From positions 186,001 to 250,000 of IMG/VR virus record IMGVR_UViG_3300034012_003212: a stretch of DNA of 64,000 bases. One strand, given 5' to 3'. The notes below the pieces were generated by a model. It was not told where the DNA came from and ran no database searches. It was given only the letters and a program-made list of their open reading frames with translations. Of the stretch, positions 1,175 through 38,941 are shown one piece after another. Position numbers and translations under genes: made by a program. This DNA is from a virus. The stretch's first letter is position 1, and each line of letters starts with the position of its first letter.

Positions 1175-1179
1175 ATAGT

Positions 1180-11098: not shown

Positions 11099-11395
11099 TT
11101 AACCTCGAAGGATGGTGATGCGTCCCTTTGATGCGGTGATTGTGGCAGCTGATTCGTCTATCGGCCCGACTGTGGATTCATGGAGCCTGATTGATCCATC
11201 GAGCTCCACTGTGTATGTTGCTATGATCTTCTGTTTCGCCGGAGGATTCTGGGTCATCACGAGTTCATCGAACCCGTTCTTCCCGTATGTGACATAGACC
11301 GTGTCACGGGGGAAAATTCCACAAGCGCGCAGGACTATAGACCAGATGCGAACCCTCCTCCTGCTACATTTTGATATGCCAGTCGTGTTTACCAT
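11099..11395 (-). CDS. Basic protein coupled to the LRR array (98 aa)
   Basis: The N-terminus is strongly basic (KCSRRRVRIWSIVLRACG), followed by FPRDTVYVTYGKNGFDELVM, which recalls the small beta-barrel of SymE/AbrB-like proteins (a weak resemblance). The ATG overlaps the stop of the last minus-strand LRR gene (ATGGTAA), so it is the terminal gene of that operon and probably translated by coupling. Confidence 0.55.
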   Translation of the reverse strand: MVNTTGISKCSRRRVRIWSIVLRACGIFPRDTVYVTYGKNGFDELVMTQNPPAKQKIIATYTVELDGSIRLHESTVGPIDESAATITASKGRITILRG

Positions 11396-11784
11396 TCAGT
11401 GTACTTCAACTTGTGCTTCAGGTGCTTAGGAATCACACCGGGCACATGCACACGGCCATAGAACCCTGTGTCCGAATCATAAGAGATCTCTTCTCCCGTA
11501 TGAAGGTCATCAGGCAGCTTCTTGATCCCTGAGCATCTACTAAGATGCACACCTCCTCTAACTATGAGTCCATCAGGCAGCTTCGTGAGGCCCTTGCAAT
11601 CCCATAGACTCAAATACCCATTCACCTTGAGTCCATCAGGCAGCTTCGTGATCCCTGTGCAATAATAGAGACGCAGATCGCCATTCACCTTGACAACCTC
11701 AAGTGTTCCAAATGAATCCAAAGCCTCCTGGGAACACCTTCGAAGTTCCACCCTCGTTTCTTCTTCTACATTTATTTCTATCAT
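11389..11784 (-). CDS. LRR-array protein M1 (131 aa, 3 repeats)
   Basis: Last LRR gene of the minus arm. The C-terminus is KHKLKYTEW rather than the usual KLKKW, and its stop overlaps the ATG of the basic 98-aa protein. The third unit has LSRCSGIKKLP. The C-cap is the GRVHVPGVIPKHLK variant. Confidence 0.85.
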   Translation of the reverse strand: MIEINVEEETRVELRRCSQEALDSFGTLEVVKVNGDLRLYYCTGITKLPDGLKVNGYLSLWDCKGLTKLPDGLIVRGGVHLSRCSGIKKLPDDLHTGEEISYDSDTGFYGRVHVPGVIPKHLKHKLKYTEW

Positions 11785-11809
11785 ATTCAGTTTCTATTTT
11801 GGAATCCCT

Positions 11810-12325
11810 TTACACCATCCTCAACTTGTGCTTCAGCCTCTCGGGGATCACACCGGGCTCGTCCTCATGGCCAGAGAACCCTGTCTCTGAATTATAATAT
11901 ATTCTTCCTTCCACCTGAAGATCTTCAGGCAGCTTCGTGATCCCTGAGCAACCATAGAGACTCATCCCGCCATTCACCTTGAGATCAACAGGCAGCTCCG
12001 TGAGTCCTGTGCAATAATCGAGATTCAATTCCCTATTCACCATGAGGCCATCAGGCAGCTTCGTGATCCCTGTGCAATAATTGAGAAACAAATACATATT
12101 CACCATCAGGCCCTCAGGCAGACTCGCGAGTCCTGTGCAATTTCTGAGACTCAAATACCCATTCACCTTGAGATCATCAGGAAGCTTCTTGAGTCCTGCA
12201 CAATAATAGAGACTCAGATCCCCATTCACCTTAAGGGCCCTGAGGGACCCAAATGAATCTAAAGCTTCCTGGGAACACTTCCTGAGGTGTACCCTCGTTT
12301 CTAGTTTTACTTCTATTTCTATCAT
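11810..12325 (-). CDS. LRR-array protein M2 (171 aa, 5 repeats)
   Basis: Five units, including ASLPEGL and TELPVDL variants. N-cap MIEIEVKLETRVHLRKCSQEA. The C-cap is the GHEDEPGVIPERLKHKLRMV type shared with M4 and M9. Confidence 0.87.
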   Translation of the reverse strand: MIEIEVKLETRVHLRKCSQEALDSFGSLRALKVNGDLSLYYCAGLKKLPDDLKVNGYLSLRNCTGLASLPEGLMVNMYLFLNYCTGITKLPDGLMVNRELNLDYCTGLTELPVDLKVNGGMSLYGCSGITKLPEDLQVEGRIYYNSETGFSGHEDEPGVIPERLKHKLRMV

Positions 12326-12345
12326 ATTCAGTTTTTATTTTGGAA

Positions 12346-12801
12346 TCAATCCCATTTCTTCAATTTGTGCTTCAGGCCCTCAGGGATCACTCCAGGTTCA
12401 TCCTCGTGGCCAGAGAACCCTGTGTCCGAATCATACAAGATGTTTTCTTCCACATGAATGCCCTCAGGCAGCTTCGTGATCCCTGTGCAACCATAAAGAA
12501 TCATACCCCCTTGCACATGGAGTCCATCGGGCAGCTTCGTGATCCCTGTGCAACCATAGAGATCCAGATGGATTCTAACCTTAAGATCTTTGGGCAGCTT
12601 CGTGAGCCCCACGCACCAACGTAGATTCAATTGCCCATTCACCTTGAGTCCATCGGGCAGCCTTGTGAGCCCTGAACAATTCCTAAAAATCAAATACCGA
12701 TCCACCTTGACGGCCTCAAGGGACCCAAATGAATCCAAAGCCTCTTGGGAACAATACTCAAGGTCCACCTTCGTTTCTAGTTTTACTTCTATTTCTATCA
12801 T
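12346..12801 (-). CDS. LRR-array protein M3 (151 aa, 4 repeats)
   Basis: Closest relative is P6 on the opposite strand (19152-19607): both have the unusual VDRYLIFRNC first unit and GQLNLRWC second unit, and the same KKWD end, so this is an inverted duplicate. Confidence 0.87.
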   Translation of the reverse strand: MIEIEVKLETKVDLEYCSQEALDSFGSLEAVKVDRYLIFRNCSGLTRLPDGLKVNGQLNLRWCVGLTKLPKDLKVRIHLDLYGCTGITKLPDGLHVQGGMILYGCTGITKLPEGIHVEENILYDSDTGFSGHEDEPGVIPEGLKHKLKKWD

Positions 12802-12826
12802 ATTCAGTTTCTATTTTGGAATCCCT

Positions 12827-13222
12827 TTACACCATCCTCAATTTGTGCTTCAGCCTCTCGGGGATCACACCAGGTTCATCCTCGTGGCCGTAGAACCCTG
12901 TTTCTGAACCATAAAAGATCTTTTCTCCCATATGAAGGTCATCAGGCAGCTTCGTGAGTCCTGTACAGCCATTAAGATGCAGATACCCTCCCACAATGAG
13001 ACCATTAGGAAGTCTTGCGATCCCTGTGCAGTCAATAAGATTCAAATACCCATCCACCCTGAGACCCTCAGGAAGCCTCGTGAGTCCTGTGCACATAAAG
13101 AGATCCAAATCCCCATTCACCCTGACGGACTCAAGGGACCCAAATGAATCCAAAGCCTCCTGGGAACAATACTCAAGGCGCACCCTCGTTTCTACTTGTA
13201 TCTTTATCTTCTTCTTTCTCAT
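12827..13222 (-). CDS. LRR-array protein M4 (131 aa, 3 repeats)
   Basis: Carries the second N-cap type (MRKKKIKIQVETRVRLEYC). The ARLPNGLIVGGYL unit is shared with plus-strand P5, another cross-strand match. Confidence 0.87.
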   Translation of the reverse strand: MRKKKIKIQVETRVRLEYCSQEALDSFGSLESVRVNGDLDLFMCTGLTRLPEGLRVDGYLNLIDCTGIARLPNGLIVGGYLHLNGCTGLTKLPDDLHMGEKIFYGSETGFYGHEDEPGVIPERLKHKLRMV

Positions 13223-13248
13223 GTCTTGTTTCTATTTTGGAATCACAA

Positions 13249-13650
13249 CTACCACATCTTCAACTTGTCCCGTAGGTGGTCAGGGATCACACCAGGCTCA
13301 TCCTTATGTTTAAAGAACCCTGTGTGTGAGTTATACCATATCTTTGCACCTACAGTGAGACCCTCAGGCAGCTTCTTGATCCCTTTGCAATATGAGAGAT
13401 TCAGAATTTCTCCTACTATGAGATCTCTAGGAATCTCTGTCGTTGTATCACGTAGAATCAGACCCTCTTTCACCCTGAGATCTCTAGGAAGCTCTTTGAG
13501 CCCTACACAACCAGCGAGATTCAGGTACCCATTCACCCTGAGACCCTCTATCCTTCTTAAGGAGTTCAAGGCCTGCCTAGAACACTCCATTAGAGACACA
13601 ATAGTAAGCTCAGGTACTTGTATTTTTCCATTTATTTCTGTCATGCTCAT
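13249..13650 (-). CDS. LRR-array protein M5, divergent (133 aa, 3 repeats)
   Basis: The N-cap is divergent (CSRQALNSLRRIEGLRVNG), and one unit has lost its cysteine and reads RDTTTEIPRDL. Two in-frame ATGs (13650 and 13644) are possible starts. The C-cap is FKHKDEPGVIPDHLRDKLKMW. Confidence 0.83.
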   Translation of the reverse strand: MSMTEINGKIQVPELTIVSLMECSRQALNSLRRIEGLRVNGYLNLAGCVGLKELPRDLRVKEGLILRDTTTEIPRDLIVGEILNLSYCKGIKKLPEGLTVGAKIWYNSHTGFFKHKDEPGVIPDHLRDKLKMW

Positions 13651-13671
13651 GTTTTATTTATTTTTTATTTA

Positions 13672-14244
13672 TTAATGCCATCTCTTCAACCTTTCCTTCA
13701 GATGGTTAGGGATCACTCCCCGCTTGTCCTTACTTTTAGAGAACCCTGTGACTGAGTTATACCAGATCTTTCCTACCACCTGGAGATCTTCAGGCAGCTT
13801 AGTGATCCCTTCACAACCGCGTAGATCCAGATCCTTTCTAACTATGAGGTCATCAGGAAGCTCCGTGAGCCCTGTGCAATTGCATAGATCCAGATCCTTT
13901 CTAACTATGAGGTCATTAGGAAGCTCCGTGAGCCCTTCACAATTACTGAGTGTTAGGCTCCCTCCTACAACAAGACCCTCAGGCAACTCTGTGAGCCCTG
14001 TGCAATCTTCTAGATCCAGTCTCTCTCCTACAACAAGACCCTCAGGCAGCTCTGTGAGCCCTGCACAGTCTTGGAAAAACAGACTCCCACTCACCTTTAG
14101 ATCATCAGGCAGCCCTGTGCAGCTGACGAGACCTATATTCCCTTTCACCCTTAGAGTTCCGATCTTCCTTAAGGAGTCAATAGCCTCACGAGAACAACTT
14201 CCGGCATTCACTTTCGTGTAATCTTCTACATTTATTGTTACCAT
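13672..14244 (-). CDS. LRR-array protein M6 (190 aa, 6 repeats)
   Basis: The first unit is four residues short (CTG runs directly into LPDDLKVSG), a clean internal deletion. Two middle pairs (LVVGERLDLEDC/LVVGGSLTLSNC and the two LIVRKDLDL units) look like recent tandem duplications. The C-cap is basic (SKSKDKRGVIPNHLK). Confidence 0.87.
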   Translation of the reverse strand: MVTINVEDYTKVNAGSCSREAIDSLRKIGTLRVKGNIGLVSCTGLPDDLKVSGSLFFQDCAGLTELPEGLVVGERLDLEDCTGLTELPEGLVVGGSLTLSNCEGLTELPNDLIVRKDLDLCNCTGLTELPDDLIVRKDLDLRGCEGITKLPEDLQVVGKIWYNSVTGFSKSKDKRGVIPNHLKERLKRWH

Positions 14245-14269
14245 ATTCAGTTTCTATTTTGGAATCCCT

Positions 14270-14659
14270 TTAATATTTCCTCAACTTGCACTTCAGGTGC
14301 TTAGGAATCACACCGGGCACATGCACACGGATATAGAACCCTGTGTCTGAATTATAATATATAACTCCTATCAGATGAAGATCTTTAGGCAGCTTCGTGA
14401 TCCCTGTGCAATTTCTGAGGTTCAGAAGCCCTCCCACGGTGAGGCCATCAGGCAGCTTCTTGAGTCCTGCACAATAATAGAGACTCAGGTTCCCTCCCAC
14501 AGTAAGGCCATCAGGCAGCTTCGTGAGGCCTGTGCAACCCACCAAATACAAACCCCCATTCACCTTAGGGGACTCAAGGGACCCAAATGAATCCAAAGCC
14601 TCTTTGGAACACTCTCTAAGGACCACTAACGTTTCTTTTCTTACCTTTATTTCTATCAT
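14270..14659 (-). CDS. LRR-array protein M7 (129 aa, 3 repeats)
   Basis: N-cap MIEIKVRKETLVVLRECSKEA, with CSKEA like P1. Units include LTVGGNLSLYYCAGLKKLP, also present in P13. C-cap IRVHVPGVIPKHLKCKL. Confidence 0.86.
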   Translation of the reverse strand: MIEIKVRKETLVVLRECSKEALDSFGSLESPKVNGGLYLVGCTGLTKLPDGLTVGGNLSLYYCAGLKKLPDGLTVGGLLNLRNCTGITKLPKDLHLIGVIYYNSDTGFYIRVHVPGVIPKHLKCKLRKY

Positions 14660-14681
14660 ATTCAGTTTCTATTTTGGAATC

Positions 14682-15134
14682 TTATTTATATTTCTTCAAC
14701 TTGTGTTTCAGTCTGTCAGGGATCACACCGGGCACATGCTCATGGCCATAGAACCCTGTCAATCCATTATAGTAAATTGTTTCACCCACATGAAGGTCAT
14801 CAGGCAGCTTAGTGATCCCTGAGCAACCATAGAGAAACAAATACCCCACCATGAGGTCATCAGGCAGCTCCGTGAGCCCTGTGCAGCCTACTAGATTCAA
14901 ATACCCATTCACCATGAGATACACGGGCAATTTTTTGAGCCCCTTGCGGCCACTAATATCCAAATCCCCATTCACCCTGAGGCCCCCAGACAGCTTCGTG
15001 AGCCCCTTGCAATCATAGAGACTCAAATGCCCATTCACCTTGAGGGCGTCAATCCTTCCTAAGGAGTCAATAGCCTCCTGAGAACAGCCCCTAAGGTTCA
15101 CTGTTGTTTCTTCTTCTACATTTATTTCTATCAT
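14682..15134 (-). CDS. LRR-array protein M8 (150 aa, 4 repeats)
   Basis: Start put at the spacer ATG at 15134; a GTG two codons earlier is also open. One unit has LSGGL instead of LPxGL, one reads SGRKGLKKLP without the cysteine, and one lacks a residue (MVGYLFLYG). Confidence 0.85.
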   Translation of the reverse strand: MIEINVEEETTVNLRGCSQEAIDSLGRIDALKVNGHLSLYDCKGLTKLSGGLRVNGDLDISGRKGLKKLPVYLMVNGYLNLVGCTGLTELPDDLMVGYLFLYGCSGITKLPDDLHVGETIYYNGLTGFYGHEHVPGVIPDRLKHKLKKYK

Positions 15135-15159
15135 ATTCACTTTATATTTTGGAATCCCT

Positions 15160-15744
15160 TTACACCATCCTCAACTTGTGCTTCAGCCTCTCGGGGATCA
15201 CACCAGGTTCATGCTCATGGTCATAGAACCCCGTGTATGAATTATACCAGATGACTCCATCTACATTAAGATCATCAGGCAGCTTAGTGATCCCCTTGCA
15301 ATCATAGAGATCCAAATCCCCATTCACCTTGAGTCCATCAGGCAGCTTAGTGATCCCCTTGCAATCATAGAGACTCAAATACCCATTCACCTTGAGACCG
15401 TCAGGCAGCCCTGTGAGCCTTATGCAATGATTGAGAGCCAAATCCCCATTCACCATAAGATCATCAGGCAGCTTCGTGATCCCTGTGCAACCATAGAGAT
15501 CCAGATGCCTTCCAACCTTAAGATCTTTGGGCAGCTTCGTGAGCCCTGTGCAACCACGAAGACTCAAATACCCAGCCACCATGAGATCATCAGGCAGCTT
15601 CTTTATCCCTGTGTGTTTCCATAGACCCAGATCCCCATTCACCTTGACAACCTCAAGGGACCCAAATGAATCCAAAGCCTCTTGGGAACACCTTCCAAGG
15701 TTCACTATTGTTTTTTCTTGTATCTTTATCTTCTTCTTTCTCAT
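15160..15744 (-). CDS. LRR-array protein M9 (194 aa, 6 repeats)
   Basis: First LRR gene of the minus arm and the longest regular member, with N-cap MRKKKIKIQEKTIVNL. The first unit carries the rare WKHTGIKKLP, paralleled by WQHTGIKKLP in P10. Lies 36 bases downstream of the small acidic gene. Confidence 0.87.
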   Translation of the reverse strand: MRKKKIKIQEKTIVNLGRCSQEALDSFGSLEVVKVNGDLGLWKHTGIKKLPDDLMVAGYLSLRGCTGLTKLPKDLKVGRHLDLYGCTGITKLPDDLMVNGDLALNHCIRLTGLPDGLKVNGYLSLYDCKGITKLPDGLKVNGDLDLYDCKGITKLPDDLNVDGVIWYNSYTGFYDHEHEPGVIPERLKHKLRMV

Positions 15745-15780
15745 GTCTAGTTTCTATTTTGGAATCCAACGAACCCTAAT

Positions 15781-15945
15781 CTACACAAAATACCAGTGTG
15801 ATCGTGCAGCTTCTTCGTATTCTTCTTCGTCCTCTTCATCCTCGTCTTCGTAGTCCTCTTCGTACTCATCAGAATCATCAGGAGGAAAGAACCACGGGGC
15901 GGTGGGCCTTACGAACACTGCGAACTTTGTCTCGGGGTCTTTCAT
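15781..15945 (-). CDS. Small very acidic protein leading the minus LRR arm (54 aa)
   Basis: MKDPETKFAVFVRPTAPWFF is followed by an almost uninterrupted Asp/Glu/Tyr stretch (residues 23-44) and the end AARSHWYFV. It is the first gene of the minus arm. A GATATATA motif ends 5 bases before its ATG, so if that is a promoter the mRNA would be leaderless. The acidic tract may mimic DNA or bind basic proteins; function unknown. Confidence 0.5.
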   Translation of the reverse strand: MKDPETKFAVFVRPTAPWFFPPDDSDEYEEDYEDEDEEDEEEYEEAARSHWYFV

Positions 15946-15950
15946 GGTTT

Positions 15951-15958
15951 TATATATC
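15951..15958 (-). promoter_or_regulatory. Candidate late promoter of the minus LRR arm
   Basis: GATATATA on the minus strand, 5 bases from the ATG of the 54-aa gene. By T4 late-promoter geometry, transcription would start at about the A of the ATG. Confidence 0.4.
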
Positions 15959-16196
15959 ACGCGGGGCGTGGTGTTACATTGTGCTACAGGGAGGCTGGGG
16001 TGGAAGAGAGGGCCCCAGGGGGAACGCGCGCCAGGATTGACCAGGTGACTCGAAAGGGAAAATGGGTGGGGTAACATGGGTATGATGAGTTTCATTAGAC
16101 CTGGGTGGAACAGTAGTGTCAGAAAATGAACAGGGGTAAAGGGTCGGGGGTTTTTTAAAAAAACATTTATATTGTATCAACCTCATCCGCTTTCCG

Positions 16197-16348
16197 CTCT
16201 CCTGGGCAAAAAGTGCCCTGGTTGTGCCCATTCACATATCACCCTCATGGGCAAAACGTTCCGTGGCTGCGCCTTTTTGTATACCGTACCCTCCTGGGCA
16301 AAAAGTTCTATGGCCCGGGCGAGTCCACTTACTGTGCCCTCCTGGGCC
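16197..16348 (+). repeat. Tandem ~47-bp repeat, three copies plus a partial
   Basis: Units begin at about 16197, 16242, 16289 and 16337 with CTCCTGGGCAAAAAGT or a close variant, and share a downstream TGG...GC pattern. They are imperfect, so not very recent. A short TGGTCCT triplication follows at 16357-16378. Confidence 0.65.
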
Positions 16349-16412
16349 CTCAGTCCTGGTCCTTGGTCCTTGGTCCTGATTGTCTTGAGGGCCTGTGCGA
16401 GTGTGTCCTGAC

Positions 16413-16450
16413 AGAACAGAGGGGTGGAACTGATTCATCTACTCTGTTCT
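16413..16450. repeat. Inverted repeat in the hub
   Basis: AGAACAGAG (16413-16421) and CTCTGTTCT (16442-16450) are perfect 9-bp arms around a 20-base loop. With a two-base bulge the stem extends to CTGA/TCAG. No T-tract follows, so it is not an obvious terminator. Confidence 0.5.
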
Positions 16451-16667
16451 CAGGTTTCCTTGTCTTTTTTCTTCTTTCTCTCTGTGGGTGTGGGTGGATC
16501 TTCTGGATCCTGTGCCCCCTTTTGATCTTCTCTCTCTCTCTTTCTTTCCTTTCTTCCAGGCTGGGTTGGGTGTGAGTGTGAGTGTGAGAGGAGGGTCATT
16601 CCTTTTTCTGGTCCTTCTGGTTGTTGGTCGGTGGGCACACAGAGAGAGTGGGGGGTTCTGGCATCTT

Positions 16668-16703
16668 GGAGGGTTTTTTTTTGGAGGGGGAGGGGGAGGG
16701 GGG
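16668..16703 (+). other. G-run cluster with G-quadruplex potential
   Basis: The plus strand reads GGAGGG, nine Ts, then GGAGGGGGAGGGGGAGGGGGG. Runs of 3, 5, 5 and 6 Gs could form a multi-tetrad quadruplex. It lies just upstream of two TATTTTTG boxes and about 240 bases before the first plus-strand LRR gene. Confidence 0.65.
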
Positions 16704-16718
16704 TGTGAGTAAAAATGT

Positions 16719-16735
16719 TATTTTTGTTATTTTTG
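16719..16735 (+). promoter_or_regulatory. Tandem host-type -7 boxes
   Basis: TATTTTTG at 16719-16726 and again at 16728-16735 on the plus strand, facing the plus LRR arm. The -33 region falls inside the G-rich tract and lacks a TTG, which weakens the call. Confidence 0.4.
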
Positions 16736-16870
16736 TTAGTTGGAGTCTTCTTCCCGGGTCTGATCATCAGAGGGAAGATGTTGGGCCGTTGTGGTTATGA
16801 AGAGAAGCTGATCCGTCATCGGGCACAGGGGCGATGATTTTAATGGCAGAAGGTTCCATCAGGGGTGGTT

Positions 16871-16885
16871 TATTTTTGATATATA
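16871..16885 (+). promoter_or_regulatory. Candidate promoter(s) of the plus LRR arm
   Basis: TATTTTTG (16871-16878) runs directly into GATATATA (16878-16885). The second part, GATATATACAGC, is identical over 12 bases to the motif upstream of the portal gene. The first LRR gene starts 57 bases further on. Confidence 0.5.
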
Positions 16886-16941
16886 CAGCCCACCGTGGAT
16901 TATGAATAGACGGCGCGCGCTAGGTGAAATAAAAACTGAAT

Positions 16942-17460
16942 ATGATAGAAATAAATGTAAGAAAAGAAACGTTAGTGTACCTTAGAGAGTGTTCCAAAGA
17001 GGCTTTGGATTCATTTGGGTCCCTTGAGGCCCTTAAGGTGAATGGGCATTTGGATCTCTATTATTGCACTGGGCTCAAGAAGCTGCCTGATGGCCTAATG
17101 GTGAATGGGGATCTGAATCTCTATGGCTGCACAGGACTCACGAAGCTGCCTGATGATCTTAAGGTTGGAAAGCATCTGATTCTATGGAGTTGCCCGGGGC
17201 TCACAGAGCTGCCTGATGATCTCAAGGTGAATGGGAGTCTGAATATATGGAATTGCACGGGCCTCACGAAGCTGCCTGAAGGGCTCAAGGTTGAAGGGAC
17301 TCTGGATCTATGGTATTGCACAGGGATCACGAAGCTGCCTGAAGATCTTCAGGTGGAAGGATTCATATATTATAATGAAGGCACAGGGTTCTATGGACAT
17401 ATGGATGAGCCTGGCGTTATCCCTAACCACCTGAAGAACAAGTTGAAGAAACGTAAATAA
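16942..17460 (+). CDS. LRR-array protein P1 (172 aa, 5 repeats)
   Basis: First gene of the plus arm, next to the hub promoters, so the best expressed if transcription decays along the array. Uses the CSKEA N-cap variant of M7. The C-cap is GHMDEPGVIPNHLKNKLKKRK. Confidence 0.88.
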   Translation: MIEINVRKETLVYLRECSKEALDSFGSLEALKVNGHLDLYYCTGLKKLPDGLMVNGDLNLYGCTGLTKLPDDLKVGKHLILWSCPGLTELPDDLKVNGSLNIWNCTGLTKLPEGLKVEGTLDLWYCTGITKLPEDLQVEGFIYYNEGTGFYGHMDEPGVIPNHLKNKLKKRK

Positions 17461-17482
17461 GACTTTAAAATAGAAAGTGAAT

Positions 17483-17878
17483 ATGATGGAAATAGAGGTA
17501 GATGTAGAAACGAGTGTGGTCCTCCGAAGGTGTTCCCAAGAGGCTTTGGATTCATTTGGGTCTCTTGAGGCCGTCAAGGTTAATGGGGATTTGGGTCTGC
17601 ACCGTTGCACAGGGCTCACGGAGCTGCCTGATGATCTCAAGGTGGATGGGTATTTGAGTCTATATGGTTGCCCGGGGATCAAGAAGCTTCCTGGGGGCCT
17701 CAGTGTGAATGGGGACCTGGATCTAGGTCATTGTCCAGGGATCAAGGATCTTCCTGAAGATCTTCAGGTGGAAGGAAGCATATATTATAATTCAAAGACA
17801 GGGTTCTCTGGCCATGAGGACGAGCCTGGCGTGATCCCTGATCATCTGAAGAACAAATTGGAAAAATATGGTAGATGA
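17483..17878 (+). CDS. LRR-array protein P2 (131 aa, 3 repeats)
   Basis: Start at the spacer ATG (a GTG two codons earlier is open). Positions 17675-17794 are identical to 27852-27971 in P25, spanning the GIKKLPGGLSVNGDLDL unit, the KDLPEDL unit and the start of the C-cap. Confidence 0.87.
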   Translation: MMEIEVDVETSVVLRRCSQEALDSFGSLEAVKVNGDLGLHRCTGLTELPDDLKVDGYLSLYGCPGIKKLPGGLSVNGDLDLGHCPGIKDLPEDLQVEGSIYYNSKTGFSGHEDEPGVIPDHLKNKLEKYGR

Positions 17879-17900
17879 GATTCCAAAATAGAAACTGAAC

Positions 17901-18290
17901 ATGACAGAAATAAAGGTAAAAGAAAAAACACTAGTGAAACTTAGTTGGTGTTCTCAGGAGGCTTTGGATTCATTTGGGTCCCTTGAGGCCCTTAAGGTGA
18001 ATGGGGGGCTGAGTCTCTATTATTGTGTAGGCATCAAGAAGCTGCCTGATGATCTCAAGGTGAATGGATATTTGAATCTCACCAATTGCGCAGGGCTCAC
18101 AGAGCTGCCTGATGGACTCCATGTGAAAGTTAGTGTGATTCTTTATGGTTGCTTAGGGATCACGAAGCTGCCTGATGACCTTCATGTGGGAGAAGAGATC
18201 TGGTATAATTCATACACGGGGTTCTACGGCCGTGTGCATGTGCCCGGTGTGATCCCTAAGCACCTGAAGCGCAAGTTGAAGAAATTTTAA
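17901..18290 (+). CDS. LRR-array protein P3 (129 aa, 3 repeats)
   Basis: Begins MTEIKVKEKTLVKLSWC. One unit, LHVKVSVILYGC, departs from the VNG consensus. The C-cap is GRVHVPGVIPKHLKRKLKKF, as in M1. Confidence 0.86.
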   Translation: MTEIKVKEKTLVKLSWCSQEALDSFGSLEALKVNGGLSLYYCVGIKKLPDDLKVNGYLNLTNCAGLTELPDGLHVKVSVILYGCLGITKLPDDLHVGEEIWYNSYTGFYGRVHVPGVIPKHLKRKLKKF

Positions 18291-18314
18291 GAGATTCCAA
18301 AATAGAAACTGAAT

Positions 18315-18734
18315 ATGAGAAAGAAGAAGATAAAGATACAAGAGAAAACAATAGTGCACCTCTGGAATTGTTCCCAAGAGGCTTTGGATTCATTTGGGTC
18401 CCTTGAGGCCGTCAAGGTGAATGGCGATCTGCGTCTCAATTATTGCACAGGGATCACGAAGCTGCCTGATGGACTCAAGGTGAATGGGTATTTGAGTCTT
18501 ATTGGCTGCACAGGACTCACGAAGTTGCCTGATGGCCTCAAGGTGGATGGGAATTTGAATCTCTTTATGTGTACAGGACTCGCGAAGCTGCCTGAAGATC
18601 TTCAGGTGGAAGGAGTCATATATTATGATTCAGACACGGGGTTCTCTGGCCATGAGCATGAACCTGGTGTGATCCCTACAAGGCTGAAGCACAAGTTGAA
18701 GAAATGGGAGATGAGATTCCAAAATAGAAACTGA
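18315..18734 (+). CDS. LRR-array protein P4 with read-through tail (139 aa, 3 repeats)
   Basis: The normal stop after KLKKW is missing and the frame runs through the spacer, adding EMRFQNRN. The TGA inside the spacer (ACTGAAT) stops it two bases before the next ATG. Confidence 0.85.
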   Translation: MRKKKIKIQEKTIVHLWNCSQEALDSFGSLEAVKVNGDLRLNYCTGITKLPDGLKVNGYLSLIGCTGLTKLPDGLKVDGNLNLFMCTGLAKLPEDLQVEGVIYYDSDTGFSGHEHEPGVIPTRLKHKLKKWEMRFQNRN

Positions 18735-18736
18735 AT

Positions 18737-19126: not shown

Positions 19127-19151
19127 AGGGATTCCAAAATAGAAACTGAAT

Positions 19152-19607: not shown

Positions 19608-19627
19608 TTCCAAAATAGAAACTGAAT

Positions 19628-19954: not shown

Positions 19955-19979
19955 AGGGATTCCAAAATAGAAACTGAAT

Positions 19980-20725: not shown

Positions 20726-20773
20726 AGTGCAATTTATATAAATTCTAGAGAGATTCCAAAATAGAAACTGAAT

Positions 20774-28962: not shown

Positions 28963-28993
28963 TAGAGATAAGATTCCAAAATAGAAACTGAAT

Positions 28994-29389: not shown

Positions 29390-29414
29390 TAAGGTCGTAA
29401 AATAAAAACTGAAT

Positions 29415-29930: not shown

Positions 29931-29950
29931 TTCCAAAATAGAAACAGAAT

Positions 29951-30406: not shown

Positions 30407-30432
30407 TTAGGATTCCAAAATAGAAAAAGAAT

Positions 30433-30888: not shown

Positions 30889-30909
30889 ATTCCAAAATAT
30901 AAACTGAAT

Positions 30910-31365
30910 ATGACAAAGAAGAAGATGAAGATAGAGGTAATAGAAGAAACGAAGGTGAAACTTAGTGAGTGTTCCCAACATGCGTTGGATTCCTTGGCGT
31001 CACTTGGATCCCTCAAGATTTTAGGTAATATGTCTCTCAATTATTGCACAGGACTCACAGGGCTCCCTGATGAACTCAAGGTGGCTGGAGATTTGAATCT
31101 ATGGGATTGTACGAGCCTCATGAATCTATCCGATGACATGAAGATCAAAGGGGATTTAAATCTATGGTCTTGCACAGGACTCACAGGGCTCCCTGGTGGA
31201 CTAGCGGTGATCGGAGATTTGACTCTATATGGATGCAAAGGAATCAAGAGCCTGCCGGATGACCTTCAAGTAAGTCGCATATTCTGTGATGCAAAGACGG
31301 GGTTCTCTGGCCATGAGCATGAGCCCGGCGTGATCCCTGAGAGTCTGAAGCACAAGTTACGTTAA
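30910..31365 (+). CDS. LRR-array protein P32 (151 aa, 4 repeats)
   Basis: Sister of P31 in the N-cap. One unit has LSDDMKIKG in place of LPDDL. C-cap lacks two residues (SRIFCDAKTGF). Confidence 0.86.
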   Translation: MTKKKMKIEVIEETKVKLSECSQHALDSLASLGSLKILGNMSLNYCTGLTGLPDELKVAGDLNLWDCTSLMNLSDDMKIKGDLNLWSCTGLTGLPGGLAVIGDLTLYGCKGIKSLPDDLQVSRIFCDAKTGFSGHEHEPGVIPESLKHKLR

Positions 31366-31390
31366 AGAGATTCCAAAATAGAAACAGAAT

Positions 31391-31843
31391 ATGATAACAA
31401 TAGAAATAAGAAAAGAAACGACAGTGAACCTTAGAGGGTGTTCTCAAGAAGCACTTGATTCCCTGGGAACGCTTGACGCCCTCAAGGTGAATGGGGATTT
31501 GAGTCTATGGCGTTGCACAGGAATCACAAAGCTGCCTGGGGGCCTCAGGGTGAATGGGGATTTGAGTCTATGGGGTTGCACAGGAATCACAAAGCTGCCT
31601 GGGGGCCTCAGGGTGAATGGGGATTTGAGTCTATCGGGTTGCACAGGAATCACAAAGCTGCCTGGGGGCCTCAGGGTGAATGGGGATTTGAGTCTATCGG
31701 GTTGCACAGGAATCACAAAGCTGCCTGAAGATCTTCAGGTGGAAGGAGTCATATATTATAATTCAAAGACGGGGTTCTATGGCTATGAGCATGTGCCTGG
31801 TGTGATCCCTGATCATCTGAAGAACAAGTTGAATAAATGGTAG
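31391..31843 (+). CDS. LRR-array protein P33 with near-perfect tandem units (150 aa, 4 repeats)
   Basis: Four units start at 31512, 31575, 31638 and 31701, exactly 63 bases apart and almost identical in DNA (CTGITKLPGGLRVNGDLSL). This is the clearest recent repeat expansion in the array. Confidence 0.88.
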   Translation: MITIEIRKETTVNLRGCSQEALDSLGTLDALKVNGDLSLWRCTGITKLPGGLRVNGDLSLWGCTGITKLPGGLRVNGDLSLSGCTGITKLPGGLRVNGDLSLSGCTGITKLPEDLQVEGVIYYNSKTGFYGYEHVPGVIPDHLKNKLNKW

Positions 31844-31869
31844 AGAAGATTATAAAATAGAACCTAGAT

Positions 31870-32259
31870 ATGATGACGATAAAGATAGAAGAAAAAACAA
31901 AGGTGGACTTCACATGTTGTTCTCAGGAAGCTTTAGATTCCTTGTCGTTCCTCGATGGGCTCAAGGTGAATGGGTATTTAAATCTCTTTGATTGCTGGAG
32001 ACTTGAGAAACTCCCTCAGGGTTTTGAGGTGTCGGGTGGTTTGCAAATTGCATGGTGTAGGGGAATCACAAGGTTGCCTAATGGACTCAAGGTGGGCGGG
32101 TGGCTGGGCATCAGACATTGCCCGAAAATTACTGTGCTTCCTGAAGATCTCCAGGTGGGTGAAACAATTAACTATAATGGAGCGACGGGGTTCTATGGCT
32201 ATGAGCATGTGCCTGGTGTGATCCCTGATCATCTGAAGAACAAGTTGAATAAATGGTAG
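31870..32259 (+). CDS. LRR-array protein P34 (129 aa, 3 repeats)
   Basis: Diverged repeats (FDCWRLEKLPQGFEVSG, IAWCRGITRLP), but the C-cap and the following spacer (through AAGATTATAAAATA) are shared with P33, the gene just upstream. Confidence 0.86.
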   Translation: MMTIKIEEKTKVDFTCCSQEALDSLSFLDGLKVNGYLNLFDCWRLEKLPQGFEVSGGLQIAWCRGITRLPNGLKVGGWLGIRHCPKITVLPEDLQVGETINYNGATGFYGYEHVPGVIPDHLKNKLNKW

Positions 32260-32285
32260 AGAAGATTATAAAATATAAATTGAAT

Positions 32286-32735
32286 ATGAGAAAAAGGAAG
32301 ATAAAGATAGGAGATTTTACATTCGTGGATATTAGGTCCTGTTCTCAGAAGGCAATGGAATCCATAACATCATTGGACAATAAGTTAAGGATCAAGGGAT
32401 ATTGGTGGTTTAACAATCTCACGAGAATTCCTGAAGGACTTAGAATTGACGAAGATCTGGATCTCTATGAGTTCGGATTCAAAGAGCTGCCTTCTGGCAT
32501 AAAGGTTGCGGGAAGTTTGTCTCTTTCTGATTCAACAGAACTCGCTGGACTCCCTGATGACCTCAAAGTGGGAAAGAATTTGTATTTAGGCGGATGCAAA
32601 GGACTCTTGTCTCTTCCTGCGAGTCTTCAAGTAGGAAGATATATTTACTATGATACACGAACAGGATTCTATGATCATATTCGTGAATCTGGTGCCATCC
32701 CTGTAGGCCTCAGGCGTAAATTGAAGAAGTATTAA
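32286..32735 (+). CDS. LRR-array protein P35 (149 aa, 4 repeats)
   Basis: Start at the spacer ATG (MRKRKIKIGD); an upstream ATG inside P34 is open but unlikely. Several units lack Cys. Last gene with the standard spacer. Confidence 0.84.
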   Translation: MRKRKIKIGDFTFVDIRSCSQKAMESITSLDNKLRIKGYWWFNNLTRIPEGLRIDEDLDLYEFGFKELPSGIKVAGSLSLSDSTELAGLPDDLKVGKNLYLGGCKGLLSLPASLQVGRYIYYDTRTGFYDHIRESGAIPVGLRRKLKKY

Positions 32736-32747
32736 TGGGATTTCAAA

Positions 32748-33161
32748 ATGCAAACTGGATATGAAAAAAAAGCTATAGAAATACAAGTAGGGGAAGTAGG
32801 GACCGTAAAACTCAATGGCTGCTCCGGGTGTGCATTAGACAGTATTATGTCTCTTTCACGTCTAAATGTCAGAGGACACTTGATTCTATGGGATTGCTCA
32901 AACATCAATAAGCTTCCTGATTGCCTAAATGTGGTTTGGGATCTATGTCTCCAAAGTTGCGAAAACCTCACTAAGCTTCCCGACGATCTCAAGGTAGGAA
33001 GGAATTTGTATATTTACGGATGCATAAAGCTCAAGAAGCTGCCCGAGAGCCTTCAAGTTGGGGATCTTATTTTATACAACGTCTTCACTGGATTCAGAAG
33101 AAGTGACCCAGGAATCCCCTTTCACTTACTCGATAAAATAACAGATGTTGGCAAAAAATAA
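32748..33161 (+). CDS. LRR-array protein P36 with shifted start (137 aa, 3 repeats)
   Basis: The ATG in the usual spacer position (32761) is out of frame and hits a stop after five codons, apparently from a change in an A-run. An ATG created earlier in the spacer (MQTGYEKKAIEIQVG) opens the frame. N-cap CSGCALDSIMSL. Confidence 0.8.
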   Translation: MQTGYEKKAIEIQVGEVGTVKLNGCSGCALDSIMSLSRLNVRGHLILWDCSNINKLPDCLNVVWDLCLQSCENLTKLPDDLKVGRNLYIYGCIKLKKLPESLQVGDLILYNVFTGFRRSDPGIPFHLLDKITDVGKK

Positions 33162-33170
33162 ACACTGGTC

Positions 33171-33713
33171 ATGAAACATCAGATAAAGACACAAGAAATA
33201 TCAGTCATTAATCTTAGGGAATGTTCTCAAAAGGCACTGTATTCCATAAAATACATGCATGGTTCGTTCAATGCGCAGGGTTGGTTGATCCTCTCGGGTT
33301 GCATAGTACTTGATGGGCTTCCCGATACACTCAAAATAGCGGAGCGTTTGAATCTCCATGGTTGCACAGGGCTCAAGAGCCTGCCTGATGGTCTCAAGAT
33401 CGGAGGGAATTTGCACCTTAATCGGTGCACTGGACTCATTAGTTTGCCCGATGGACTCACCGTGGGAGGGAATTTGTATCTCAATGACTGCACAGGGCTT
33501 AAGAGTTTACCTAATGGCCTCAGTATTGCAGGGGATTTGAATCTCTCGGGATGTGCAAACATTAAAACGTTACAGAAAGATCTACGTGTAGGAGGATATA
33601 TCAAATATGATGAATCAACAGGATTCTATGATCATATATATGAACCAGGGGTGGTTGAATACTTAATGAACGGCGGTAGATTCCAGAAAGTGATGAGATA
33701 CGATATAAACTGA
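33171..33713 (+). CDS. LRR-array protein P37 (180 aa, 5 repeats)
   Basis: Regular NLHxCTGLxSLPDGL units, but an altered C-cap (DHIYEPGVVEYLMNGG) in place of GVIPxxLK. No standard spacer. Confidence 0.83.
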   Translation: MKHQIKTQEISVINLRECSQKALYSIKYMHGSFNAQGWLILSGCIVLDGLPDTLKIAERLNLHGCTGLKSLPDGLKIGGNLHLNRCTGLISLPDGLTVGGNLYLNDCTGLKSLPNGLSIAGDLNLSGCANIKTLQKDLRVGGYIKYDESTGFYDHIYEPGVVEYLMNGGRFQKVMRYDIN

Positions 33714-33718
33714 GCACG

Positions 33719-34114
33719 ATGACAAAGATACATATACGCAAAGTAACAGAAGTGAAACTCGTTCAATGTTCACAGCGTGCGCTGAACTCTATAATGTTTC
33801 TTGATGGTAAGTTAAAAATCAAAGGACATTTGAATCTACGATGGTGTAGGGGAATCCCAAAACTCCCAGATGAACTCATGGTTGAAGGTAGTGTTGGGCT
33901 CGATCATTCGTATACAGTCAAAATACTTCCTATTGGGCTCAGGATTGGAGGCAGTCTGTGGATCCGCGGTAGCATGATATCATCACTTCCTGATGATTTG
34001 CAAGTTGGAGATAAAATATACTATAGTTACAGAAAGGGATCACAGAAGGATGAAAGATTTTTTAGGGAGATTCCAAGTCACCTCATAAATAAACTATATG
34101 GCATTGAAACGTGA
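33719..34114 (+). CDS. LRR-array protein P38, diverged (131 aa, 3 repeats)
   Basis: CSQRALNSIMFLDGKLKIKG cap and loss of Cys in most units. C-cap reduced (SYRKGSQKDERFFREIPSHL). Confidence 0.8.
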   Translation: MTKIHIRKVTEVKLVQCSQRALNSIMFLDGKLKIKGHLNLRWCRGIPKLPDELMVEGSVGLDHSYTVKILPIGLRIGGSLWIRGSMISSLPDDLQVGDKIYYSYRKGSQKDERFFREIPSHLINKLYGIET

Positions 34115-34132
34115 TTCGAATATAAACAATCC

Positions 34133-34534
34133 ATGATAACAATAAAGATAGAAGAAGAAACTTTAGTCAATTTTCAGAAATGTACACAAGCTGCATTAGA
34201 CTCCATTTTAGTGCTTGATGACAAGATAAGGGTCAAAGGATGCTTGAGTTTCTGGGGATGCACTGGAATTACGACGATTCCTCGCGGAATTATCGTATCG
34301 GAGGAACTGAATTTATGGTATTGTAAGAATCTTGTAACACTTCCTTCTGGGATTGGGGTTGGATTAGATTTACATCTAGGTGCCTGTGAACTTCTCCTGT
34401 CGCTTCCCGAAGATCTGAGAGTGGGAGGCAGGATTCGATATAATTACAGAACCGGTTTATCCGGCCATGAGCATGAACGCGGTGTGATACCAAATAACTT
34501 ACGGAAAAAAATGATTAAATCAGTATATTGGTGA
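34133..34534 (+). CDS. LRR-array protein P39, diverged (133 aa, 3 repeats)
   Basis: CTQAALDSILVLDDKIRVKG cap. Units TTIPRGI, VTLPSGI, LSLPEDL. C-cap GHEHERGVIPNNLRKKM still recognisable. Confidence 0.8.
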   Translation: MITIKIEEETLVNFQKCTQAALDSILVLDDKIRVKGCLSFWGCTGITTIPRGIIVSEELNLWYCKNLVTLPSGIGVGLDLHLGACELLLSLPEDLRVGGRIRYNYRTGLSGHEHERGVIPNNLRKKMIKSVYW

Positions 34535-34552
34535 AAAATAAAATTAAACACT

Positions 34553-35011
34553 ATGATTGAGATAAAGGTAAAAGAATCAGCGGTTGTAAAATTTATCTGG
34601 TGCTCTGATGATGCACTTAAATCTATAGAAGGACTAAGGAGGTTGACGGTTTATGGAAGATTGGACTTATATCAATCTAAAATAAAAAGGATTCCTGACA
34701 ATACTATGGTTGAAGGAATTCTATCAATAGATTATTGCAGAAAAATAGAGAATCTTCCTACTGGACTAGTGGTCGGAGGTAACCTAGAACTACAGGAATC
34801 TACTCATATACGGAACTTGCCAGAGGACTTATTAGTAGGAGGGAACATGAACCTCATGGGTTGTAGCTTAATTAAATCCCTTCCAAAAGGTCTGCGTTTC
34901 TCTGGAATTATCTTTTGTGATTCTTCCACCGGGTTCTCAGATGAAACAATATGGGGAAGAAATTGGAGGCACCATATTCCAGACCATCTTAAAGATAAAT
35001 GCTGGAAATAA
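34553..35011 (+). CDS. LRR-array protein P40, diverged (152 aa, 4 repeats)
   Basis: CSDDALKSIEGLRRLTVYG cap. C-cap changed (DETIWGRNWRHHIPDHLKDKC). About 135 AT-rich bases without a gene follow. Confidence 0.8.
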   Translation: MIEIKVKESAVVKFIWCSDDALKSIEGLRRLTVYGRLDLYQSKIKRIPDNTMVEGILSIDYCRKIENLPTGLVVGGNLELQESTHIRNLPEDLLVGGNMNLMGCSLIKSLPKGLRFSGIIFCDSSTGFSDETIWGRNWRHHIPDHLKDKCWK

Positions 35012-35146
35012 TTAAATTATGATAAAATACCTTTAAAAATAAAACATTGAAACAGAAATAAAGTGTACAATATGAAGCAGTGTATACAAAAGACACCTGA
35101 CTATATTGCCTTCTTTTACTTTATTCAATAAACTTTTTGAAAAAAA

Positions 35147-35548
35147 ATGAAAGACAATTACGATTTTGATACGCGCGTTAACTTAAGCAACTGCCCTTTA
35201 CGAGTGATAGACAATCTTCCTATAGGGATGAAAATAAAAGGAATTCTCAATATAGTTGGAATTAAAAAGGATTTCTCCCTTCCTGAAGGATTATGTGTAT
35301 CTTGGCTCATGCAGTTAATAGGGGCAGTGAAACTAAAAAGCCTTCCACGCGATATGAAGATAGGCGGATGGATCAATCTACTTGATTGTCAATCACTACT
35401 CGATTTACCTGATGATATCTTTATATGTGGTGGAGTGTGGTATAATAAAGAAACTGGATTTATCGCAGCAGGACAAGACATACATGAACTAGAGGAGCGC
35501 TTTAGGGCAGAATTTAACATGTTTAACTCCAGCACTATAACACGATGA
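35147..35548 (+). CDS. LRR-array protein P41, diverged (133 aa)
   Basis: The N-cap is reduced to CPLRVIDNLPIGMKIKG. About three further units. The C-terminus ends HELEERFRAEFNM, a new tail also found in modified form in P43 and P47. Confidence 0.75.
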   Translation: MKDNYDFDTRVNLSNCPLRVIDNLPIGMKIKGILNIVGIKKDFSLPEGLCVSWLMQLIGAVKLKSLPRDMKIGGWINLLDCQSLLDLPDDIFICGGVWYNKETGFIAAGQDIHELEERFRAEFNMFNSSTITR

Positions 35549-36145
35549 ATATATCACAAATATGTACAGTAGATTTCAGCAAGTGTGATCAAAAGGTGTT
35601 TGATAGTATGAAGACAAATTCATGCATAAAAGCACTAACAATAATCAGTCGGAATCCTAGAATCAATAAGCTTCCCGATGGATTGCATATTGGTGGTTAC
35701 GTTGATATTAGCCGATGCAAAGGAATCGAGGACCTCCCCGGGGGGTCTGAGAGTTCTACACGGCATAATGATGATAGAGACTCGAATAAAAGAGATTCAT
35801 TCTGATGTGGTTGTTCTCGGCGAAATCGATCTACATGGAAGCCAAAGATTTAACAAAATCCCTGAGAACTTTACGGTATACGATGATTTATGTTTATCTG
35901 GAATCCCAATCAGTAATCTCCCAAAAGGATTACATGTACTAGGTAATCTGTTTGTTCGTAACTGTGAATTTCTCAAGGATCTTCCCGATGATTTACGTGT
36001 ATCTGGTACAATCTATTATTCAGAGAAGACGGGGTTCTACAGAGATAAACGTAAATTTAATAAATTAATTAAACGGTTAAATCTTCGGATTCCCCCTGAC
36101 TCCGATTTATACTCAATACAGTTATGGAAGAAAAAGCAAGAATAG
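35545..36145 (+). pseudogene. LRR-array member P42 split by a frameshift
   Basis: The first frame (35545-35805) runs normally to KGIEDLPGG, then shifts out of register at the C4G6 run (35736-35745). Read in the next frame the expected GGLRVLHG and further units (NKIPENF, SNLPKGL, KDLPDDLRVSGTIYYSEKTGF) continue to 36145. So a one-base change in the homopolymer breaks one ancestral gene. An internal ATG pair (35769) could alternatively restart the second half. Confidence 0.7.
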
Positions 36146-36558
36146 ATATAGGCGCATGTAGTTTACGCGCACTCCGGAGTCTACCCCATGGGATGTGTGT
36201 CTGCGGTGCGTTGATATCCAAAACCCGGGTTGACCCTATGTTTCTGCCTGAACAACTAAGGGCGTTGAAGCTTGACTTATACAATTGTCAAGGGGGTGTT
36301 GAGGTTTCCCATGGGACATGTATTGCAGACGGTATGTTTCTGGAAAAATGTAGGATATCAAAATTACCCACGGGTCTAATTGTAGGTGACTTAATATATG
36401 TATCCAACTGCAAAGATCTAATGGATCTACCCAAAGATATGTTGTTGTCATTGGATGGTAGAGTATATTACAATAATCACACAGGGTTTGCTGGTAATAA
36501 AGAGAAACTAGAGGAGTTGCAAGAAAGGTTCCCTGGACAAATAAAAACCTTGTTTTGA
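36124..36558 (+). CDS. LRR-array protein P43, diverged (144 aa)
   Basis: Short CSLRALRSLPHGMCVCG cap, cysteine-rich. C-cap YYNNHTGFAGNKEKLEELQERF belongs to the new tail type. Confidence 0.75.
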   Translation: MEEKARIDIGACSLRALRSLPHGMCVCGALISKTRVDPMFLPEQLRALKLDLYNCQGGVEVSHGTCIADGMFLEKCRISKLPTGLIVGDLIYVSNCKDLMDLPKDMLLSLDGRVYYNNHTGFAGNKEKLEELQERFPGQIKTLF

Positions 36559-36571: not shown

Positions 36572-36868
36572 TTGAGTGTTCAGATAAAAACAAATTTTTT
36601 GAATAGTGTTGTGTGTGAAGAACTTTTTCTCTTTGGCGTTACATCAGGTTTTTTTTTGAAGTGGATCGATTCCGTCGTCTTCGCAAAATTCATCTTCTTG
36701 AAAGATTTGTACAACTATGTTAATGGTGATTTTGTGCCTTACAGGGGGGAGCTCCACAATTTGAATATTATCACAGCGAAAGTGAAAGATGGGCTATTTC
36801 TCACAAGAAGTATGGATGAACTTCCTAAAAATGCCAAAGTCTTAGACGACAAGAATCACAATAGTTAA
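36572..36868 (+). CDS. Degenerate array remnant (98 aa, TTG start)
   Basis: Only traces of the repeat pattern (DLYNYVNGDF, MDELPKNAKV). Uses a TTG start if translated. May be decaying. Confidence 0.4.
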   Translation: MSVQIKTNFLNSVVCEELFLFGVTSGFFLKWIDSVVFAKFIFLKDLYNYVNGDFVPYRGELHNLNIITAKVKDGLFLTRSMDELPKNAKVLDDKNHNS

Positions 36869-36882
36869 TAAAAGAATATGAT

Positions 36883-37341
36883 ATGAGTAAAAATAAACTT
36901 TCAAATAGTAATCCAAAAAACGACAAGGCAGTTGTCATGTTTAAGAAAGGAAATTTGAGGTTTCCCAATGGAATCAAGGTCAATGGAATGTTGACGATAC
37001 ATATTGCTGCAAATATCGAGATCACAGGTGATATTGTCTGCGATTATCTGAACCTAAATTCTCTATTTTCTGCCATGCCTCTTATCGTGAGTACGAGATT
37101 CATATGCAAAACTGCATCACTGCGTACTGTTGTGCTTCCTAGTGAATCTTTTCAAGATTGGATTCATAATGTGATATTCGTAGAAAAAATCACACTTCAT
37201 TACTATATGCACCATGCAGTTACTACAGCTATAGAATCTTCACAGGAAGAAGAAAATTATTCGTACCTCGATAAACTAGGATTTAAAACAGATTTTGATA
37301 CATACAATCATCTGATAATCAGAAGGAAAGGGGATGCATGA
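36883..37341 (+). CDS. Highly diverged array-end protein (152 aa)
   Basis: RFPNGIKVNGMLTI recalls one LRR unit; the rest is unlike the family. Overlaps the next start by four bases (ATGATGA context), so the pair is probably co-translated. Confidence 0.6.
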   Translation: MSKNKLSNSNPKNDKAVVMFKKGNLRFPNGIKVNGMLTIHIAANIEITGDIVCDYLNLNSLFSAMPLIVSTRFICKTASLRTVVLPSESFQDWIHNVIFVEKITLHYYMHHAVTTAIESSQEEENYSYLDKLGFKTDFDTYNHLIIRRKGDA

Positions 37342-37823
37342 TGAAATATCAGGAGTTCAAAACAAACATAAATGATGCTAATTTTCTTCCCTTTTCAGGT
37401 GTTAGCAAGATAACTATAAGGGATCTTTCGAAGATATCTGTGAAGAATCACATAAGAGTCCGAGGGGTGATGTCTTTGGCCACAAAGGTTGATATGAATT
37501 CTGATCTCACACACACATTCCCTCATGGGTTCTCGTGTGAAACACTAGAGTTTGCTAGAGGACTTGTATCAACAATTTTAAACAGTACTGGATTGATTGG
37601 GCCCTCGTTCAAGTTTCTTGAGCTGAACGTATTTCTTTTTTTTATGCCTTTACACGCAGCGAGAGACATCATCAAGTCTCATGATGAATGTCTACGGGTA
37701 TACTGCAAAACGGACTTAAGCAATAGTGACAAGGATCTCAAAGGAACTGGTTTAAAATATTTACCTGTTGCAAAAAGTAATACGCCCAGAGAACTATACT
37801 GGACTATAGTGAGTCGAAAGTAA
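37338..37823 (+). CDS. Highly diverged array-end protein (161 aa)
   Basis: Weak periodicity (ISVKNHIRVRGVMSLATK) suggests descent from the LRR family, but canonical LP motifs are almost gone. No other domain recognised. Confidence 0.55.
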   Translation: MMKYQEFKTNINDANFLPFSGVSKITIRDLSKISVKNHIRVRGVMSLATKVDMNSDLTHTFPHGFSCETLEFARGLVSTILNSTGLIGPSFKFLELNVFLFFMPLHAARDIIKSHDECLRVYCKTDLSNSDKDLKGTGLKYLPVAKSNTPRELYWTIVSRK

Positions 37824-37897
37824 AAGGCTACGTAAGATCTATGAGATTTTGCAAGTTCACATAAGAATATATAAAAGAAGAGAAATGATGTAGAGTT

Positions 37898-38542
37898 ATG
37901 ATAGATGAACTTAAAATAAAAACAATCACAGAAATAAAATTGCAACGCTGCGAAGGACCAGTAACGAATAATCTCCCAAGGGGCATGAGAGTGGACGGCA
38001 ATTTAATATTTGATTATAATCCGGATCTGATTAAAGCGCCAGACGATCTTCTAGTTAATGGGTCCTGTTCATTTAGAGCGTGCGACAATCTTAAACACGT
38101 GTCAGAGAATTTAATCGTCAAAGACTCATTATTGATCCAATACTGCCAAAATATTACTGAATTGCCAAAAGGGATGATTGTATACCGCCTATTTCTTAGT
38201 GCGAACAAGAATCTAAACAAAATTGCAGAAGATATATCAGTCAGGTTATTATCCATGCGGGGGTGCGTCAATATCAATAAACTTCCTAAAGCATTCGCCG
38301 GAAGGAGTATGGTATTCCTTGATATAAAGAATTCTGCTATTGATGAAATACCAGATGGAATGAATTTGGAATTGCTCAACATAGAAGGATGCCGGTCTAT
38401 CCAAGATCTTCCTCAGAGTCTGACTGTCATCGATGAAGTAGTGTATAATGCTGACACCGGATTTGCATCTGACAAGAAAAAAATCAAAGAGCTCAAACAA
38501 AGGTTTAGGATGAGGTTTGCGCGAAATAGAAGGTGGAGATGA
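37898..38542 (+). CDS. LRR-array protein P47 (214 aa)
   Basis: Longest array protein, with about six or seven degenerate units (IKAPDDL, TELPKGM, NKLPKAF, DEIPDGM, QDLPQSL), the basic tail KKIKELKQRFRMRFARN and the YNADTGF C-cap remnant. Confidence 0.75.
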   Translation: MIDELKIKTITEIKLQRCEGPVTNNLPRGMRVDGNLIFDYNPDLIKAPDDLLVNGSCSFRACDNLKHVSENLIVKDSLLIQYCQNITELPKGMIVYRLFLSANKNLNKIAEDISVRLLSMRGCVNINKLPKAFAGRSMVFLDIKNSAIDEIPDGMNLELLNIEGCRSIQDLPQSLTVIDEVVYNADTGFASDKKKIKELKQRFRMRFARNRRWR

Positions 38543-38578
38543 TGAAGACCGTAAAAATAAATAAATAAAATCATCAAA

Positions 38579-38941
38579 ATGCTGAAAAATATAGCCATTT
38601 TCACAACAGTGGAGATCGACAGAAATACTGTGATAAGGGATGGGTCAAAAATAAAAGGCAATCTTCGTATAGGGTATAGGTCAAAAACTTTACTAAATCT
38701 ACCAGTAGGACTTAGAGTAAAAGGCGACATAAATTTATACTATGAGCAGGATTTAGTTTCGCTTCCAGAAGGACTTGTAGTATTACATGATATTGATCTA
38801 CGAGGTTGTATGGAATTGAAATACATACCTACAGATGCAATCATAGGCGGCGAGATACACTATGACGGTAACACATATGAAAAAACTGTAGATGTATTGA
38901 AGAAACGATTTAAAGGTAAGGTGATCTATGATAATGATTGA
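38579..38941 (+). CDS. LRR-array protein P48, terminal member (120 aa)
   Basis: About three units (LNLPVGL, VSLPEGL, KYIPTDA). Last array gene; its stop lies three bases from the stop of the convergent reductase gene, a sharp end to the array. Confidence 0.75.
   Translation: MLKNIAIFTTVEIDRNTVIRDGSKIKGNLRIGYRSKTLLNLPVGLRVKGDINLYYEQDLVSLPEGLVVLHDIDLRGCMELKYIPTDAIIGGEIHYDGNTYEKTVDVLKKRFKGKVIYDND

Follow-up and report, generated by a model that had tools for sequence, protein, structure and literature searches.

A tailed phage in the IMG/VR collection devotes approximately 26 kb of its 260,658-base record to about 54 adjoining, mostly unique genes for small LRR proteins. We tentatively read this locus, at somewhat less than even confidence, as a germline-encoded repertoire of small LRR binders. 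The window analyzed here comprises 64,000 nucleotides (bases 186001–250000 of the record), and positions refer to it unless preceded by C1, which denotes whole-record coordinates (genome G000). A first-pass annotation had reported about 57 tandem LRR genes at 11389–38941. One large family is indeed present and the coordinates are right overall, but they enclose a non-LRR gap (15767–16941) and the count is lower. The family LRR profile matches 55 of the 58 open reading frames (ORFs) in this interval at E < 1e-3, nine on the minus strand (11389–15744) and 46 on the plus strand (16942–38941). Two matching ORFs (35545–35805 and 35678–36145) overlap in different reading frames, as a single frameshifted gene would; merging this apparent pair gives the estimate of about 54 genes.

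ORF spacing and profile matches divide the array into divergent arms. The left arm (11389–15744, minus strand) contains nine tandem LRR genes encoding 131–194 amino acids, with spacers of 19–26 bp. The core of the right arm (16942–32259, plus strand) has 34 tandem genes encoding 108–175 amino acids, most with a conserved leader; core spacers are mostly 16–31 bp. The distal right arm (32253–36558, plus strand) carries divergent LRR genes with ~31–48% identity to the nearest core member, including the apparent frameshifted gene (35545–36145). Next on the same strand come three small ORFs that the LRR family profile does not match significantly (36572–37823; ORFs at 36572, 36883 and 37338), and then two divergent plus-strand members of 214 (37898–38542) and 120 amino acids (38579–38941), the latter being the last. 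Starting at 32 kb, divergence is greater and GC lower, the pattern that an older and decaying edge of the array should show. Outside the array, the genome has three further lone LRR members (C1 26221–27183, 136717–137436 and 180623–181090).

The leader is a 22-nt sequence (GATTCCAAAATAGAAACTGAAT; for example, at 17879–17900, plus strand) located immediately upstream of array genes. It occurs 34 times in the window at three or fewer mismatches (0 expected), always at array genes, and nowhere outside the array in the whole genome. Together with best-pair protein identities of 50–85% among core members, this enrichment argues that the LRR array did not arise by chance. The mean pairwise difference is 0.13 in the leader versus 0.38–0.45 at synonymous sites of array codons, making the leader approximately three times more conserved. 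This is consistent with selection (on translation start or RNA processing) or with use as a favored exchange point, two explanations that conservation does not separate. An assembly artifact is an improbable origin for the array. A repeat artifact would yield near-identical copies, whereas even the most similar pair has 85% protein identity and no exact repeat shared by two genes exceeds 120 nt. Misjoins at exact repeats of up to 120 nt within the array are possible.

Core members share one layout: an N-cap (M-x-E-I-x-V...C-S-Q-E-A-L-D-S), units of 21 residues (consensus PDGLKVNGDLNLYGCTGLTKL; core pattern LxVxGxLxLxxC) and a C-cap with the consensus IxYNSxTGFYGHEDEPGVIPxHLKxKL. Alignment and length-based counts in the 43 core genes bear out the earlier description of constant caps around two to six variable units (a strand-motif regular expression overcounted and was dropped); the divergent gene at 37898–38542 is longer. 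The structure prediction that the first-pass annotation had proposed returned an LRR solenoid (AlphaFold2 with 49 paralogues; pLDDT 94, pTM 0.87) with one short strand per unit and helical caps. Among solved structures, the LRR chain of a polar flagellar motor (8z5u, E 5e-20) matched best by sequence, and LRRs of plant NLRs came next. Thus, the 21-residue LxVxGxLxLxxC units, the predicted solenoid and the matches at E 5e-20 to solved LRR chains place the array proteins in the LRR superfamily. Foldseek searches of the PDB also brought up LRR proteins, all with E-values above 0.001, and the best matches in a viral fold library were LRR proteins of uncultured tailed phages (35% identity, E 5e-6). 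The best scores of the scanned window genes against Pfam LRR_1, DUF5649 and LRR_EndoS all fell under the curated cut-offs; only a protein from another phage (G001) exceeded that of LRR_EndoS.

Known LRR systems resemble the array in part. The bacterial 8z5u protein, despite being the best solved sequence match, has a fold TM of 0.51, a different N-terminus and units without the cysteine ladder. Its chain 0, of the same LRR type within a polar flagellar motor, may hint at a target in the flagellum. The LRRs of type III effectors (SspH1/SlrP, XopL and XopAC) have short bacterial LP-containing units in common with the array and give weak profile matches, but array scores are far under the cut-offs. 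Furthermore, the array proteins have no ligase or other enzyme domain (the C-cap has only ~35 residues), and none of the window array genes has an IpaH/SspH-type NEL ubiquitin-ligase domain after the LRR. Melanoplus sanguinipes entomopoxvirus, an insect virus, also has a large LRR multigene family.

We used 106 complete internal units to compute variability. Entropy peaks at positions 13, 9 and 11 of the unit. These residues point outward from the xLxLx strand and are frequently Y, R, W, D or N. Positions P1, L4, V6, L10, L12, C15 and L21 are near-invariant. In paralogue comparisons with gene-level resampling, the ratio of pN to unit-wide pS was 1.25 (CI 1.13–1.37) at positions 9/11/13, 1.21 at 14/16, 1.23 at 5/7, 0.66 in turns and 0.11 in the framework. 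The caps, with pN of 0.25 and 0.19, are more constrained than the exposed unit positions. Diversification spans every exposed position, with entropy highest on the strand face. As the raised pN comes from paralogue comparisons, it shows functional divergence rather than proving positive selection at present. The rise in pN extends to every exposed position instead of being confined to the strand face, which counts against a repertoire of binders.

Nearest relatives among the array genes are seldom adjacent. In 18 gene pairs we identified exact tracts of 55–120 nt, the rest of the genes being ~64–80% identical (90% in one pair); some of these tracts lie in different unit registers or are shared between the opposite-strand arms. 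As read from the sequences, exact tracts of 60–120 nt joining otherwise ~75%-identical, mostly non-adjacent genes indicate segmental exchange between array members. Four nearly identical 63-nt units within a single gene (31480–31727, plus strand) reflect a recent unit duplication. A diversity-generating retroelement was considered and rejected, as the 260,658-base record, possibly incomplete, has no match to reverse transcriptases (PF00078). The likeness to lamprey VLRs drawn in the first-pass annotation holds as an analogy: both systems have constant caps, variable modules and a hypervariable exposed face, and the array shows exchange. Literal kinship is not supported. The VLR-type disulfide-bonded LRRNT/LRRCT caps are absent from the array proteins (one conserved cysteine in the N-cap, none in the C-cap), as is an incomplete gene awaiting cassettes. 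Instead of undergoing somatic assembly, the array consists of many complete genes; all members but one are complete ORFs with their own start, and most have their own leader.

The claim that no phage locus of this design had been described needs qualification. A literature search returned no paper on a phage LRR array of comparable size and design, but unrelated uncultured phages (G001, G005/G047, G008, G010, G048 and G049) carry smaller tandem LRR arrays of about 3–12 genes, for which our search likewise gave no published description. For example, G005 has seven LRR genes, G047 six plus a second group, G049 at least six, G048 three, and the 257-kb G010 two groups. Like the window array, they combine constant ends with varying unit numbers; unlike it, they have other N-caps and, in some cases, extra N-terminal domains. 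The LRRs of G010 are preceded by either of two N-terminal domains whose motifs recall ADP-ribosyltransferases (ARTs); these domains have invariant YRG, SWT and ExE motifs but no ART fold or profile match (model pLDDT 75). Phage LRR proteins at L041, L045, L046 and L105–L110 show two different N-terminal domains with ART-like motifs and interchangeable LRR ends, and PcfJ-domain proteins (E about 1e-15) in phage contigs (L033/L035) have C-terminal LRRs. The LRR is thus a reusable module in other phages, joined there to differing N-terminal domains, a point in favor of a binder repertoire. G005 and G047 provide a view of array dynamics: their flanks are 94–97% identical, yet their arrays of seven and six genes differ in content by at least three LRR genes plus one chimeric gene, through gains and losses. 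Array content that differs between such near-identical phages implies fast turnover. Orthologous LRR genes of this pair have a pN/pS of 0.45 versus 0.10 in flanking genes.

Collection scans used alignment A2, as alignment A1 had no sufficiently conserved stretch. In an annotated phage collection (50,697 records), LRRs of the window type occur in only a handful of records. Single LRR proteins of uncultured Caudovirales, Edwardsiella phage Edno5 and Vibrio phage 367.14 share the LRR type, but each phage has few matching places and no array; the best annotated match, the one such gene of Edno5, shows 52% identity across 71% of the length of an array member. A2 found nothing in the genome contigs collection, where a single array member had only 27–35% matches, in Clostridia. 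Two Acetobacter plasmids, pAP22518-1 and pAC1084_1 (L125 and L126), have 25–28 tblastn places for the window LRR type per record; the members read are larger Cys-type proteins, apparently dispersed. LRR proteins and viral multigene families were thus already known, and we found a phage family of ~54 genes in no other phage.

The description of the phage as T4-like is fair for its core genes, which include a portal (Portal_T4, E 1.9e-64) and gp46/47-like, DnaB-like and UvsX-like genes; among named phages, it is closest to huge phages, one of them Lak. Six contigs have portals 74–77% identical, and no LRR match was found in any of the 31 portal-related records, all fragments. The array may therefore be dispensable in the wider phage group, a point against a repertoire of binders. 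In four of the six contigs, the orthologue of window gene 40500–41399 lies ~100 bp from the orthologues of C1 27244–28437, so the array is absent from the matching junction there. In this genome, the two loci are ~199 kb apart in changed relative orientation; 40500–41399 is near the array end, and C1 27244–28437 adjoins a lone, oppositely oriented LRR gene. The separation would be explained if LRR genes were gained at that junction and two LRR copies then mediated an inversion. A search for relatives of the neighboring gene 38945–40069 gave none. Genes for tRNA-Met (7327–7400) and tRNA-Arg (8172–8246) lie 3–4 kb from the array, and Shine-Dalgarno use is so mixed that it points to no particular host group. 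Other repeats are present in the genome. C1:7500–19500 (L051, L048) holds dozens of short tandem ORFs of a single family (MNLENVxxKIWxSVxNSVW...RLQEPIREERKG), which carry a repeat of four residues (SVxx) and are spaced ~170–206 nt apart. Tandem paralogues starting MSEWITDRLP occupy C1:183136–187839 (window 1–1839 and upstream), with a pentapeptide-repeat gene at 183924–184379. Collagen-like or simple-repeat ORFs lie at both record ends (C1:17–1474 and 257132–260646), and the record may represent a circular genome that was opened within this repeat.

Where the proteins would act can be gauged from their ends and cysteines. They have no visible signal peptide, anchor or LLE-type leader, and each unit has one unpaired, buried cysteine, features that favor action in the cytoplasm; such a cysteine would suit a reducing compartment. 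The first-pass annotation had listed adhesins and virion decorations among candidate roles, and the sequence lends these no support. A virion location, with LRRs decorating the capsid or fibers or packaged in the head to widen receptor or surface binding, is unlikely. In favor of it, the portal gene is 11 kb from the end of the array, and LRR proteins of other phages start with LLE-containing stretches (MTHLLRSLIRETLLLEE, MIKLIDLLEN and MKFQDLTTLLEQ), which presumably resemble T4 head-targeting leaders. However, the window array proteins lack such a leader, a visible signal or an anchor, they have one free cysteine per unit, and 55 distinct small ORFs are an odd route to a decoration protein.

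Near-neutral amplification, in which recombination-prone repeats grow and decay with little function, appears rather unlikely. It is consistent with the amplification of other repeat families by this phage (the short ORFs at C1 7.5–19.5 kb and the MSEWITDRLP paralogues), the one apparent frameshift and the decaying distal members, but nearly all members are open frames, framework pN is ~0.1 of pS, and the leader is kept. Quite improbable is superinfection control, in which the repertoire would exclude rivals by binding components of competing phages; a large, fast-changing binder set would suit varied rivals, but the proposal derives from array turnover rather than from direct sequence signals.

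A binder repertoire fits the combination of constant caps, diversified exposed sites, exchange between members and rapid turnover. Two long operons could be transcribed away from the central gap, one per arm. The 1.2-kb gap (15767–16941) is a candidate control region serving both; its unusual sequence has repeated CCTCCTGGGCAAAA, poly-G/A tracts and a possible acidic ORF of 54 residues, with no Rfam match and no second copy anywhere in the genome. Promoter and terminator scans, and the frequency of the T4 late-promoter octamer, were at chance level. The LRR binders would be made in the host cytoplasm after infection and remain there, with different members binding different host or rival-phage proteins such as defense sensors or takeover targets. 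We predict host takeover or counter-defense as the most likely role, although no known defense-system family was matched and the annotated neighbors of the array suggest no pathway. The repertoire may stay large because its targets vary among hosts and change fast. Large sets are kept likewise in other host-parasite repeat-protein families. A bolder proposal, conceivable but doubtful, is a recombining germline combinatorial library of ~54 LRR binders that deploys many specificities at once from two operons against variable host defense proteins. Such a library would evolve like an immune-receptor repertoire in reverse.

Phage genomes are compact, and ~26 kb for one binder family implies either that the family is strongly beneficial or that repeats are unusually well tolerated. 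Should the proteins bind host factors, the array would provide a ready-made library of binders evolved by a phage and a direct route to unknown host targets or defenses. Furthermore, with its segmental exchange, birth and death of genes and exposed-site diversification, the array offers a test of repertoire evolution in a bacterial virus.
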